IMG/VR virus record: IMGVR_UViG_3300025853_000468
Span: 1 to 29,338 of that record
Reading direction: 5' to 3' (one strand)
DNA from: a virus
Length of the DNA stretch: 29,338 bases
Both the position numbers and the translations under genes were made by a program. Numbering within the stretch: position 1 is the first letter of the stretch; the number at the start of each line of letters is the position of its first letter. Under the pieces are notes generated by a model that saw nothing but the letters and a program-made list of their open reading frames with translations, was not told the origin of the DNA and did not search any database. Below are positions 9,908 to 20,239 of this stretch, piece by piece.

Positions 9908-10329
9908 TCCCAACTAACAAACTCTAACCAACCTCTTATTCCTGCCGCCCTGTCATTTTCCATGCGGGCGGCTTCTGCTTTGTAGTGCTTGGCTATTTCT
10001 TTTTGCTCTTTGTGTGCACGTTTGCCTAGCTCAATGTCTTCTGCTTTTTCTCTAATTAACTCAAGGGCACCTTCGCCGTAGGTGTCAATATAATGACGCA
10101 CAAAGTAATCAGGGCTACTGCCATACTTCTGGTGACATCCATAGCAGTGGGCAAACGCATTCATTCCATCGTACCGTAGGCCCTTTTTAGCGCGGCTAAA
10201 GTAGTGGGAGCAGTGCAATCCAACGCTATTTTCTTCGTACTGTTTGCCGCATCCTTGGCATTTAAACTCGTTGCGAATCCGAACGCACCTACTAAACCAG
10301 TGGTCTGCCGCTGTTCTTTTTAGTTTCAT
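9904..10329 (-). CDS. ninG: NinG/Rap-like recombination endonuclease
   Basis: This 141-aa protein resembles lambda NinG (Rap), a structure-specific nuclease acting on recombination intermediates. The Cys/His pattern is C24-x2-C27, then LHCSHYFSRAK (C40, H42) and AFAHCYGCHQKYG (C62, C65). This is the zinc-binding HNH-like core of the family, followed by a Lys/Glu-rich helix. It is shorter than lambda Rap (about 200 aa). I chose the ATG at 10329 because it overlaps the NinB stop as ATGA; a longer frame to 10389 lies inside NinB. Its 3' end meets the late operon tail-to-tail. NinB-NinG adjacency is the classic lambda ninR order. Confidence 0.85.
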   Translation of the reverse strand: MKLKRTAADHWFSRCVRIRNEFKCQGCGKQYEENSVGLHCSHYFSRAKKGLRYDGMNAFAHCYGCHQKYGSSPDYFVRHYIDTYGEGALELIREKAEDIELGKRAHKEQKEIAKHYKAEAARMENDRAAGIRGWLEFVSWD

Positions 10330-10745
10330 AACTGATCCTTTAGTTGTTGAGGAAATGGTACATATACCTGTTTGTTCTCTGAGAGCCACCTCGTTAGCAC
10401 CTCAGCGGCTTCCGAGAGTTGGGCAGGGGTAAGCTTGGCTGTAGAGTTTTTGCCGTGCATGGCCTTTATAATGGGCTTGTAGAGCATCTCCTTTACAAGC
10501 ACCTCAGTAAACGGTATCTCAAAGTTATCACTGAACGGATGTCTTACCCAGCATCCAGCATCATTTAGTTCTTCAGCTATCTGCCTAAACCATAGGTGCA
10601 TAGCATTGTTTTGTCTGTCGCTACGCGTTGTATCTTTAATTGCATAGAGTATTAACTTGCCTTGGTCGAATTGATCCTTGATAAAAGCAATAAAGAAATC
10701 TCGCTTGTCTTTTGTATCAACAAGCCATCTGTGTGCTGTTTCCAT
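10326..10745 (-). CDS. ninB: NinB (Orf-like) recombination mediator
   Basis: This 139-aa product matches the NinB/Orf family by its size (lambda NinB is about 146 aa) and by the segment DTTRSDRQNNAMHLWFRQIA. The pattern 'R...QN..mH.w...iae.' is diagnostic to my eye, followed by GCWVRHPFSDN and FTEVLVKEMLYKPI. In lambda, Orf binds ssDNA and SSB and helps load the annealing protein. An ERF-type protein and an SSB-like protein are encoded 1.4-2 kb away on the other strand. The start follows GGGGGATAT. Upstream lies the symmetric repeat array. Downstream it is coupled to NinG by ATGA. Confidence 0.85.
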   Translation of the reverse strand: METAHRWLVDTKDKRDFFIAFIKDQFDQGKLILYAIKDTTRSDRQNNAMHLWFRQIAEELNDAGCWVRHPFSDNFEIPFTEVLVKEMLYKPIIKAMHGKNSTAKLTPAQLSEAAEVLTRWLSENKQVYVPFPQQLKDQL

Positions 10746-10762
10746 ATATCCCCCATTTAGTT

Positions 10763-10900
10763 TGCCCAGTTTGCCCAGTTTGCCTTTGATGCCTTTAATG
10801 CCCTTATTTTGACTGCCCCTTGTGTCGCATTAAGCCCGCTTGTAAGACTCAATGGGCACACTAGATTAGGGCATCACGGGCATCGCGGGCATTCTGGGCA
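10763..10900. repeat. Symmetric inverted array of 9-bp-spaced TGCC/GGGCA iterons
   Basis: TGCC cores begin at 10763, 10772, 10781, 10790 and 10799 (exactly 9 bp apart), and one more begins at 10814. GGGCA cores begin at 10854, then 10869, 10878, 10887 and 10896. The last five left cores and the five right cores mirror each other exactly about 10836 (spacing 9, 9, 9, 15 on each arm); 10763 is an extra copy. CGGGCATTCTGGGCA at 10886-10900 recurs at 19576-19590. The array fills the gap between NinB and the ATPase gene. It could be an origin, an operator, or an imperfect long hairpin in RNA. Confidence 0.85.
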
Positions 10901-10902
10901 TT

Positions 10903-12024
10903 CTACATTGGTATCCATCTATAAAACTTCTGACCGTAAGCGCCTTTGCGCTCAAGCTTTAGGTTGTTGCCCTTGAGTAAGTCCATGCAGGTGCGAAGCA
11001 TTTTCTTTGTTACGCCGTTAGGATTCATCTCGTCGTCGTTTAGCATCTGAAACAACTCGCTTTGAGAGTAAAGCTTGTGCGCTTTCATTATTTTTTGAAG
11101 GAAGATGTACTCGTCTTCGTACTTTGCAATCGCTTTGCCTATCTTTATCTGAGCAGATTGCTTGTCTTTCATTTCTGTTATGTCGTCGGGACTCATAAAC
11201 TGCACTGAGTCAACGGACTCTTCATACCCTACAGTCTCGCTAGTTTGCTTGTACTTGAATCCACCCTCGAAACTGATCTGGCTACGATCCTTTTCATTAA
11301 TTACTAATAACTCTTGGTGAAATGCAAACTTGTCGTTTAGTGGATCAAGGCCAAACATATTGTCAACGTCTGCCTTGAGATCTCCAACACCCTCAAACAC
11401 AAGCCTGCCGTCCATGCTTCGATGCTTGTTGCAATGACCCAACAAAATAACTGTACCGCCAGCGGCGGCAAACTCTCGAAACACATGAAGCACTTCACGC
11501 ATCTCACCTTTGTTCATTACGCCAACAAACTTCTTTAGCGTATCGCATATAACAATCTTGCCGTCTGCTTCTCCTTCTTGGCGGATAGCATTCAGTAGAT
11601 TTAGTGCGTCATTGGTAGTGCGTAGCGCTGGGTCGTTGCTGTTTGCCAGTGTTACCATGGTCATGCCGTGGCGCTTGCCTAGCTTAGCTTTCTGCAGTGC
11701 GCCTCTGGCGCCGTCATCTTCATTGAAGTAGATAACGTCCGACCCTTTAATAAGATTGTTGCGTATAGATTGAAACAGGTTGCCTAATATCCACACCGTC
11801 TTACCAGCTCCTGACGGGGCGTATACGAGCGTTACAGTTCCGGTGGTAATCATGCCTGGTATAACGTCTTTTTCTTTAGAGAGGCGCTCCTCAAGCTCCT
11901 CTATGCGGTCGTTTAGTGCCGCACTCCTTAGTCTATCTAAGGCTGACTTTCCATTTTGTCCTATGTCGATTGGTTTTGTTATTTGATTTTGCGAGTCGCA
12001 ATAAAGTGACCATTCATCACTCAT
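10903..12024 (-). CDS. RecA-fold AAA ATPase (RepA/DnaB-like) with C-terminal winged helix
   Basis: This 373-aa protein has one RecA-type ATPase core. The Walker A is APSGAGKT at residues 69-76. A Walker B-like strand VICDT has Asp161, and LLGHCNK at 195-200 is a sensor-like strand. This is the AAA_25/RepA style used by phage and plasmid helicases and recombination ATPases. Residues about 305-373 (SQSELFQML, then KKMLRTCMDLLKGNNL and GQKFYRWIP) look like a winged-helix DNA-binding domain. It is the only clear replication-type motor in the window. It heads the leftward set with NinB and NinG and starts divergently from the ERF gene. Whether it is a helicase or a recombinase-type ATPase cannot be decided from sequence. 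Confidence 0.75.
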   Translation of the reverse strand: MSDEWSLYCDSQNQITKPIDIGQNGKSALDRLRSAALNDRIEELEERLSKEKDVIPGMITTGTVTLVYAPSGAGKTVWILGNLFQSIRNNLIKGSDVIYFNEDDGARGALQKAKLGKRHGMTMVTLANSNDPALRTTNDALNLLNAIRQEGEADGKIVICDTLKKFVGVMNKGEMREVLHVFREFAAAGGTVILLGHCNKHRSMDGRLVFEGVGDLKADVDNMFGLDPLNDKFAFHQELLVINEKDRSQISFEGGFKYKQTSETVGYEESVDSVQFMSPDDITEMKDKQSAQIKIGKAIAKYEDEYIFLQKIMKAHKLYSQSELFQMLNDDEMNPNGVTKKMLRTCMDLLKGNNLKLERKGAYGQKFYRWIPM

Positions 12025-12170
12025 TTAGTAGTCCCCTATATTTCGGTCGAAAAGACTTTAACTGTGTATTAGATGGGTAATCTTGTCAATAACTTTTAAA
12101 AGGTTTAAAACTCTTTACAACTCTTTTGAAGTTCGATAGGATGGCTTTACCTACCAAAAAGGAGAGCAAC
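12025..12170. promoter_or_regulatory. Divergent control region between ATPase and ERF genes
   Basis: This AT-rich gap separates the leftward ATPase gene from the rightward ERF gene. It holds the palindrome CTTTTAAAAG (12093-12102), directly followed by the near-palindrome GTTTAAAAC (12103-12111), and a direct repeat AACTCTTT at 12109-12116 and 12119-12126 (10-bp offset). These may be operators. A perfect TTGACA on the minus strand (12089-12084) has no convincing -10 at the right distance. Confidence 0.5.
12114..12142 (+). promoter_or_regulatory. Candidate sigma-70 promoter for the ERF operon
   Basis: TTTACA (12114-12119, 5 of 6 consensus) is separated by exactly 17 bases from TAGGAT (12137-12142, 4 of 6). 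The expected start near 12149 leaves room for the strong ribosome site AAAAAGGAG before the ATG at 12171. It overlaps the AACTCTTT repeats, which could control it. Inference from consensus only. Confidence 0.4.
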
Positions 12171-16671: not shown

Positions 16672-17505
16672 TTATGCGGCTTGGTTGTCATACTTTCGCA
16701 TGAGTTCAAATTGCGACATGCAATACTCGAATGCTTTTTGTGCATCCTTTGCCGCTGTCGTAATGTATTTTGGATCAGACTTGATAGCCTTCTGCCATGA
16801 CTTGATGTAGCTAGCGTGTTGTTTGATGTCATAGGTTACACCGAGTTGAGCGGATAAGAAGATGGAACCCAGCTCTGCCACCAACTCTTCTTTGGCGTAG
16901 TCTTCATGACCAAAGGCGCCAGTCAGATCACGATCAAGTCGTTTGCTATGACCAGTAGCGTGAATGCATTCATGGTAAAAGGTAGATTGATAGGCATCGT
17001 CAGATTCAAACTGACCTAGTTGAGGCATTCTAATTTGGTCAGCTGAAGGTGAGTAGCATGGATTGTGATGCGGTGCGTTACTGACTTTGACTTGCAGTGC
17101 GTCAGCTATATCGTGCGGACGTTCGAGCCTGCTCTCACGCATCGGTATCTCAGGCAATTCAATACCTGTTTGGTCGATGTTGAATAGGTTATATACCTTG
17201 GCAAAAGCATACTCTTTATCAGGGTCTTTCTTGTCTTTTGCTTTGTTGAAGAAAATTGCAGGCGTTGCCTTCTGGCCTTTGACACTGCCACCGAGCTGTT
17301 GCACCTGGTTCCATGTGAGCCAGTAAGGTTTTGTGTATCCATATTTCCAACTGGCAATCATCGTCATCAGTTGGTTAGTGCCATTGTAAGGGCGTTTAGT
17401 TACCCAGTTTTGGTGAAGGCAAGACTGTGATTCCCATGTCTTGCGCCATGTGGTTTCATCTGCCATAGCAGACTCAACGAGTTCAATGATTCGATCGTAT
17501 TTCAT
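16672..17505 (-). CDS. ArdC-like antirestriction protein (DUF1738 + zincin)
   Basis: This 277-aa product has two parts. Residues about 1-125 match the ArdC N-terminal ssDNA-binding domain style (TWRKTW, PYNGTNQLMTM, YWLTWNQVQQLGG, KGQKATPAIFF). Residues about 130-277 form a zincin domain with YHECIHATGH (HExxH at 178-182) and KEELVAELGS supplying a likely third Glu ligand. ArdC proteins of plasmids and phages protect incoming DNA from restriction. Size is near the usual 290-320 aa. The start at 17505 follows AGGGAACTGTT. Early leftward position fits action soon after DNA entry. Whether the peptidase acts on host proteins is not known from sequence. Confidence 0.85.
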   Translation of the reverse strand: MKYDRIIELVESAMADETTWRKTWESQSCLHQNWVTKRPYNGTNQLMTMIASWKYGYTKPYWLTWNQVQQLGGSVKGQKATPAIFFNKAKDKKDPDKEYAFAKVYNLFNIDQTGIELPEIPMRESRLERPHDIADALQVKVSNAPHHNPCYSPSADQIRMPQLGQFESDDAYQSTFYHECIHATGHSKRLDRDLTGAFGHEDYAKEELVAELGSIFLSAQLGVTYDIKQHASYIKSWQKAIKSDPKYITTAAKDAQKAFEYCMSQFELMRKYDNQAA

Positions 17506-17546
17506 AACAGTTCCCTTTTTGTTTTGGTGGTTAAAGTCTATCAAAG

Positions 17547-19567: not shown

Positions 19568-19590
19568 GGGCATTACGGGCATTCTGGGCA
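19568..19590. repeat. Three GGGCA iterons, 9-bp spacing
   Basis: GGGCA cores start at 19568, 19577 and 19586. The stretch CGGGCATTCTGGGCA (19576-19590) is identical to 10886-10900 in the symmetric array near NinB. Same core, same spacing and a shared 15-mer indicate one DNA-binding factor acting at both loci, or a recent duplication. Confidence 0.8.
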
Positions 19591-19680
19591 GTTAATTGGG
19601 TTTATGTGGAGTTTTGCAAGCTACTGATTACTAAAGGAATATTAATCAGGTTTTTATTCGGTTAAGTTATAAGGTAGGAT

Positions 19681-19725
19681 TTGTATCAAAGATACAAGCC
19701 GTCGCTAAAAAGCAAAGCTTTTAGC
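19681..19725. promoter_or_regulatory. Two adjacent perfect or near-perfect hairpins with AAA loops
   Basis: TTGTATC-AAA-GATACAA (19681-19697) is a perfect 7-bp stem. Seven bases on, GCTAAAAAGC-AAA-GCTTTTAGC (19704-19725) is a 9-bp stem with one bulged A. Both have the same AAA loop and lie 80-125 bases before the terminase gene. There is no T-run, so they are operators or 5'-leader structures, not terminators. Confidence 0.65.
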
Positions 19726-19736
19726 TATAAAGAGTG

Positions 19737-19765
19737 TTGATTACCAATTAATTCATCTATAGGAT
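19737..19765 (+). promoter_or_regulatory. Weak candidate late promoter
   Basis: TTGATT (19737-19742, 4 of 6) is 17 bases from TAGGAT (19760-19765, 4 of 6). The same TAGGAT -10-like hexamer with the same spacer is seen before ERF. It would start transcripts near 19772, shortly before the terminase gene, whose ATG has no clear ribosome site. Confidence 0.3.
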
Positions 19766-19804: not shown

Positions 19805-20239
19805 ATGCAGTCAGATTACGTCAAAAAGAGAAAGGCTGAAATCAAGCAAAGAAAACAAGAGTCGGGAAGACCGTCTAAAAAGGATTTATCGGCAAATTCG
19901 CCTGGGGGAAGAGGTAGGGTAGGTCGTCCGAAGGGCGATGCGGCTATCATCAATGAGTACAAGGCGAGGATGTTGGCTTCGCCAAAGTCAAAGAAAGTCT
20001 TAGAAACAATCTTTGATGCCGCATTAGACCACGACCACAAGAATCAGGCGGCGGCATGGAAGTTAGTCATGGATCGTATCGCGCCTGTAGCGGCATTTGA
20101 AAAAGATGTCGTGCAAAACGGCGGGAAATCTGCTATTCAGATCAACATTACGGGCGTAGGGGCGGCAGAGGTCAAGGACATTGATCCGACTACTATCCAA
20201 CCCACGGTAATTGATGGGGATAACGGTGAAATACTTTAA
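19805..20239 (+). CDS. Probable small terminase subunit
   Basis: This 144-aa protein precedes the large terminase by three small genes. The N-terminus is very basic with two GRP cores (SGRPSKKD and RGRVGRPKGD), like AT-hooks or DUF5681-type DNA-binding starts. A helical middle (INEYKARMLASPKSKKVLET, then NQAAAWKLVMDRIAP) and a beta-rich tail (AIQINITGV) follow. Small terminases recognise phage DNA and load the large subunit. The start has no ribosome site, and an in-frame TAA lies just upstream (19796-19798), so the ATG at 19805 is the first possible one. A small hairpin (19777-19794) sits before it. The call rests on context and the basic-helical pattern. Confidence 0.6.
   Translation: MQSDYVKKRKAEIKQRKQESGRPSKKDLSANSPGGRGRVGRPKGDAAIINEYKARMLASPKSKKVLETIFDAALDHDHKNQAAAWKLVMDRIAPVAAFEKDVVQNGGKSAIQINITGVGAAEVKDIDPTTIQPTVIDGDNGEIL

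Follow-up and report, generated by a model that had tools for sequence, protein, structure and literature searches.

Introduction

Initiator proteins that locate a replication origin close to their own gene have been described in several mobile elements. Rep of the Staphylococcus aureus pathogenicity islands (SaPI) and Cch2 of the staphylococcal cassette chromosome SCCmec are self-loading initiator helicases with iteron origins downstream of their own genes; their C-terminal domain reads short iterons (5 nt in Cch2) in a sequence-specific manner, and binding by two hexamers has been proposed (PMC7581432). In the phage-inducible chromosomal island-like element (PLE) satellites, the RepA_N DNA-binding domain and the origin covary as a swappable module, as proven by swaps, and an origin-directed nuclease is thought to drive repeated switching of specificity (PMC8263062). 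The plasmid pRN1 encodes a winged-helix replication protein, and inverted repeats immediately 3' of the rep gene form its origin (PMC4234260). Here we analyze a viral sequence, the IMG/VR record IMGVR_UViG_3300025853_000468 (positions 1 to 29,338, its full 29,338 nucleotides, hereafter the window), in which a non-coding gap between an ATPase gene and a ninB-like gene holds two facing arms of short repeats in 9-bp steps. Comparison with related loci leads us to conclude that this array is very probably the binding site of the ATPase's own C-terminal winged helix.

Results

The ninB-side arm of the array carries TGCC cores at 10763, 10772, 10781, 10790 and 10799 in 9-bp steps and another at 10814 after a 15-bp step, and the ATPase-side arm carries GGGCA cores at 10854 and then, in 9-bp steps, at 10869, 10878, 10887 and 10896 (Table 1). 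All of these cores had been listed in a preliminary description of the window, and every one is found in the sequence. The longest 9-bp-step runs in the gap are five TGCC and four GGCA, and when the gap was dinucleotide-shuffled 5,000 times, not one run of four appeared; the array is real and far beyond chance. The same description had emphasized a mirror symmetry about position 10836, which is exact for five pairs (10772/10897, 10781/10888, 10790/10879, 10799/10870 and 10814/10855) and takes in the 15-bp step of each arm. This symmetry is little informative, since any two facing arrays of equal period mirror about some center. The sole extra information in it is the common 15-bp step, which is not conserved: besides the window, only its near-copy L202 showed it, and the exact mirror is likewise not conserved. 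The reported agreement between left and right spacer bases is partial, two of the four usually being mismatched (AA opposite AA).

A scan based on the ATPase yielded 80 loci, and the set with longer flanks that we analyzed comprised 81 sequences including the window. The array is present throughout, directly after the ATPase gene or after a small inserted gene. Kept across the 81 loci are the 9-bp step, the two facing arms (mostly three to five units each) and GGG; the two letters after GGG, the spacer and the arm-to-arm distance vary. The expectation that spacing rather than spacer sequence would be conserved was thus borne out for the step, the facing arms and the GGG, and failed for the 15-bp step and the mirror. 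The letters after GGG switch in concert, both arms together, and define three word classes: GGGCA (54 loci, four of which, L240-L242 and L043, have a broken array unit and were assigned by hand), GGGGA/GGGTA (18 loci) and GGGCC/GGGCT (9 loci). Nine loci (L210, L214, L221, L225, L229, L233, L236, L239 and L243) have a small extra gene between ATPase and array, which shows that the array can stand apart from the ATPase stop codon. That an inserted gene separates the two in some relatives also rules out the idea of the array as degenerate coding sequence of the ATPase tail.

The center of the array is variable in length and in many relatives contains TTTAGGGGGCGGG...CCCGCCCCCTAAA-like sequence, from which that of the window differs. 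In L205, L206, L225 and L271 it holds extra small GGGAAAAGCGGCC...CCC hairpins that resemble inserted small mobile inverted repeats, and L274 and its relatives share a conserved inverted repeat, TTTTAGGGGGCGGCCCCCAAAAA, between the arms.

The ATPase matches Pfam AAA_25 with 44.7 bits (cut-off 27), and the RecA-fold matches of its core model include the RSF1010 RepA structure (1olo; Z score 9.6, root-mean-square deviation 3.9 over 169 residues). Its C-terminus is confidently predicted by AlphaFold2 (AF2) as a winged helix, with a predicted local distance difference test score (pLDDT) of 86-93 over most of the domain in the full model and a mean of 91 when modeled alone. The predicted elements are a helix at 303-312, a strand at 318-320, a second helix at 321-327, the recognition helix at 340-350 and a hairpin at 355-370, so that the model has three helices and a beta hairpin in winged helix-turn-helix order. 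Structural matches of the domain are to PadR/HxlR/Fur-type domains (Z score up to 8.9); a search of solved structures by sequence gave no credible relative.

We scanned 14 gene families, with many columns, for residues that track the array word. In this exploratory scan the best column was ATPase residue 325, with a ratio of mutual information to entropy (MI/H) of 0.95, and full separation of GGGGA from GGGCA, with no residue shared, was found only at columns 318, 325 and 344 of the 373 in the ATPase. Residue 318 is M in all GGGGA phages and never M among the discovery-set GGGCA phages. At 325, F occupies 53 of the 54 GGGCA loci, the remaining one having Y; Y is also the residue of every GGGCC/GGGCT locus, and the GGGGA loci all have L, V or C. 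Residue 344 follows the fourth letter of the word, R with C and L with G, T or A, in 120 of 120 loci, the arrays of L278 and L279 being read by eye. Thirty-nine of these loci were fetched after the rule had been seen, through two more scans; all have R344 and GGGC-type arrays and none has L344, so that this fresh test covers the GGGC half of the rule and not the GGGGA half. The later set also includes four Y325 loci rich in GGGCC/GGGCT and five loci with GGGCA and M325, a residue new at this position and found in one clade. If R344 touches the guanine that pairs with letter 4, this would be a common type of protein-DNA interaction.

A tree built from ATPase residues 1-290 shows 11 changes of word class, and residues 318, 325 and 344 agree with the class in all six independent pairs on well-supported branches (p 0.031 by sign test). 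The switches outnumber the independent inventions of each word, because reader and array can travel together by recombination. In other families, NinB, NinG, the excisionase-like protein and families 10 and 18 among them, some closely related proteins from opposite classes show full or almost full identity.

The window also has a second, three-unit array, which the preliminary description had missed. It lies about 8.7 kb from the main array, inside a 541-bp divergent gap. Thirteen phages, all on the branches nearest the window, carry this second site by the same gene with two to four units, and in every one of the 13 its word agrees with the main array (five GGGGA-type, eight GGGCA-type), several of them being close kin and the independent cases hence fewer than 13. 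One close comparison is that of L220 (GGGCA) with L230 (GGGGA), which are mostly 91-99% identical over about -4.2 to -0.4 kb, with few lower stretches, and differ jointly in the ATPase C-terminus, the main array and the distant site. These observations argue for one trans-acting reader serving both sites. A stretch of about 31% guanine plus cytosine (GC) content at 19600-19760 abuts the second array and may be an unwinding element or a promoter region; since it adjoins this stretch, the second site could itself be a second origin or an operator.

No cultured relative was found by DNA or protein at 1e-5 in the collections searched. The one remote hit is an AAA ATPase encoded by Campylobacter phage CAM-P21 (L410, 2555-3517; 25.6% identity, E 3e-4), where the next gene directly overlaps and no 9-bp array occurs in the 5.7 kb examined. 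The search of genome contigs for kin gave one short contig of a metagenome-assembled genome labeled Gammaproteobacteria, too short for naming a host. Many contigs with a GGGCAT 9-bp pattern and without kin genes resemble coding repeats, judged from the surroundings of the match only.

Among the window proteins scanned, no helicase, primase or polymerase besides the ATPase was recognized (a 29-kb record that may be incomplete), and the family searches run on the window turned up no integrase. The excisionase-like protein was considered as a Cox-like binder of the 9-bp repeats and ruled out, being identical across word classes (L250 versus L251 and L235). The window also encodes an ArdC-type anti-restriction protein with a zincin-like metallopeptidase domain (16672-17544, minus strand; Pfam PF08401 and PF18818).

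Table 1. Coordinates of the array, its proposed reader and neighboring features in the window
Feature	Position	Strand	Remarks
Non-coding gap, 157 bp	10746-10902		Between NinB gene (-) and ATPase gene (-); holds the array
Arm adjoining ninB	10763-10818	-	Six units, GGGCA/GGCA read on the coding strand; conserved in relatives as GGG-N6 units
Center between arms	10819-10853	no strand	Sequence comparison with relatives
Arm adjoining ATPase stop codon	10854-10900	+	Five GGGCA units
ATPase, AAA_25, RecA/RepA-like fold, proposed array binder	10903-12024	-	Pfam E 1.5e-11
Predicted C-terminal winged helix of ATPase, residues 303-373	10906-11118	-	AF2 model
R344 codon, recognition helix 340-350	10993-10995	-	R in all GGGC-type, L in all GGGG/GGGT-type phages
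F325 codon, helix 321-327	11050-11052	-	Word-class comparison
Residue 318 codon, start of strand 318-320	11071-11073	-	Word-class comparison
Second array, three units, GGGCATTAC GGGCATTCT GGGCA	19568-19590	+	Divergent non-coding gap beside gene at 19805
NinB/Orf-like recombination mediator, gene after array	10326-10745	-	PHROG 72, E 8e-10; word not tracked
Excisionase-like protein, 57 amino acids	13182-13355	+	PHROG 1266, E 0.0013; in most relatives

Discussion

The preliminary description had read the array as the site of a bound oligomer, whether replication origin, segregation-type site or master operator. That reading fits, and the covariation suggests a binder that can now be named, the adjacent ATPase acting via its C-terminal winged helix. 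It is very probable that this domain reads the double-stranded array, possibly with one GGGNN unit per ATPase subunit, and two facing oligomers might assemble, one on each arm. The ATPase would then be the origin-binding initiator and the helicase, or helicase loader, that starts phage DNA replication, working in the manner of SaPI Rep and Cch2 on iterons just downstream of its own gene. An origin is favored because of the position behind the gene, the facing arms, the RecA-fold ATPase, the lack of another recognized replication enzyme and the precedents; that the array is the phage replication origin nevertheless stands only slightly on the favorable side of even. Taken as a whole, an ATPase-read array used in replication initiation is the best explanation, and we regard it as probable by a moderate degree. 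The sequence does not choose between an origin and an operator.

Several observations weigh against an ATPase-read origin. There is no AT-rich unwinding element between the arms, the gap having a GC content of 0.43-0.59 in the eleven loci measured, and the distance between the arms ranges widely, from 29 to 244 bp, some of the extreme values arising at degenerate units that interrupt the run. Many relatives lack the second site. The model of the ATPase core is weak, with a mean pLDDT of 60. The relation of residue 325 to the fifth letter is a tendency, since L239 has Y with mostly GGGCA and an exception clade has F325 with GGGCC in one arm. Finally, recombination can move the code of the winged helix together with the neighboring array as one cassette, given the likeness among GGGGA C-termini, and linkage alone would explain part of the correlation, though not the match at the distant site.

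The alternative that fares best is an operator, at which the ATPase would repress or pause transcription into ninB-ninG and, at the second site, control the divergent promoter region beside 19805, with no role in replication. The array lies within the operon, immediately ahead of where ninB translation begins, the second site occupies a non-coding gap between divergent genes, and winged-helix domains are frequent in repressors. Against this, no array precedes the ATPase gene itself (gap 12025-12170), a scan of the array-bearing gap gave no promoter-like site, and two long facing arms together with a RecA-fold ATPase would be unusual for a simple repressor; the patchy occurrence of the second site counts against an operator as well. 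We consider this explanation unlikely, while still deserving serious attention.

It is also conceivable that some other factor binds the array and that the ATPase C-terminus correlates with it through adjacency and joint recombination. In favor of this, GGGGA-type C-termini resemble one another across backbones, and close cross-class pairs differ mainly in the ATPase C-terminus beside the array. However, the only three columns that separate GGGGA from GGGCA without overlap all fall in the predicted DNA-reading fold; NinB, the array's other neighbor, shows only weak association in its columns and reaches 100% identity between classes; and the 14 families gave no better candidate. Moreover, the distant site switches as well, a match that linkage leaves unexplained; it is this site that separates function from linkage, on a modest number of lineages. 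A bystander role of the ATPase thus seems improbable.

Alternatively, the array might act as RNA: the ATPase-ninB mRNA would fold into an extended, interrupted hairpin and in this way govern translation, decay or termination, and the joint change of both arms would then be compensatory pairing. The hairpin had been anticipated in the preliminary description, and the coding strand is indeed predicted to fold strongly (-62 kcal/mol, z score -4.5); this fold probably arises simply because the arms face each other. The distant site has one orientation only and could form no hairpin, yet it tracks the same word, as does the ATPase winged helix. In addition, the two regularly mismatched spacer positions in each unit and the variable unit numbers and arm distance speak against pairing, there is no Rfam match at the gathering score, and the gap contains no terminator-like site. 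An RNA element is accordingly very improbable. A terminator as such was ruled out on the last of these findings and because the central GC-rich inverted repeat of the arrays has no consistent T-run.

GGG is the most conserved part of the unit and 6-nt loops between GGG tracts fit quadruplex rules, but G-quadruplexes formed by these tracts in 9-nt steps are the least credible explanation and extremely improbable, since many arms have only three GGG units, short of four tracts in every arm, and loop letters should not change jointly in both arms, the distant site and a winged-helix residue.

If an ATPase-read origin is correct, a likely origin and its reader would be named for a common group of uncultured marine phages for which the collections searched contain no close cultured relative, and a RecA-fold ATPase would join the proteins that locate their own origin by a C-terminal reader. 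The loci (54, 18 and 9 in the three classes) would then constitute a natural series of matched readers and sites for the study of a winged-helix recognition code. More tentatively, and in our estimate somewhat short of an even chance, the protein may represent a RecA/RepA-fold initiator of new build, combining its own winged-helix reader, a double oligomer on facing arrays, a reader-plus-array cassette that is swapped and a code of two to three residues.

This putative initiator has features in common with several known systems. Its low-confidence core model shares a RecA fold with the hexameric helicase RepA of RSF1010. In RSF1010 a distinct protein, RepC, recognizes the iterons, whereas here the predicted DNA-reading domain is part of the ATPase itself. 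As in the lambdoid O/P region, ninB- and ninG-like genes come after a replication-type gene. The lambda iterons are longer direct repeats inside the O gene; the phage array lies outside the gene, beginning at the ATPase stop codon, and has facing arms. Unlike the phage ATPase, pRN1 combines a primase-polymerase with a superfamily 3 helicase, and its origin is a stem-loop of about 100 bp without iteron arrays (PMC4234260).

As with SaPI Rep and Cch2, the iterons lie downstream: in the window and in most relatives the array begins right where the ATPase gene stops, and a small gene intervenes in some. That the C-terminal domain would also set iteron specificity here is supported by covariation (residues 318, 325 and 344 and the distant site). 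SaPI Rep and Cch2 have DUF927- or D5/Primase_Cterm-type helicase domains, neither of which Pfam finds in the phage ATPase, where it gives AAA_25 with a RecA/RepA-like fold, and the putative origin of the phage differs in its facing 9-bp arms. The PLE initiator is of another kind, belonging to the RepA_N family with an N-terminal DNA-binding domain and semi-palindromic iterons of about 30 bp (PMC8263062). As in PLE RepA, the DNA-binding domain and its site seem to have been swapped repeatedly while the rest of the protein stayed unchanged, and this recurrent switching of specificity raises the question of its selective cause in these phages.
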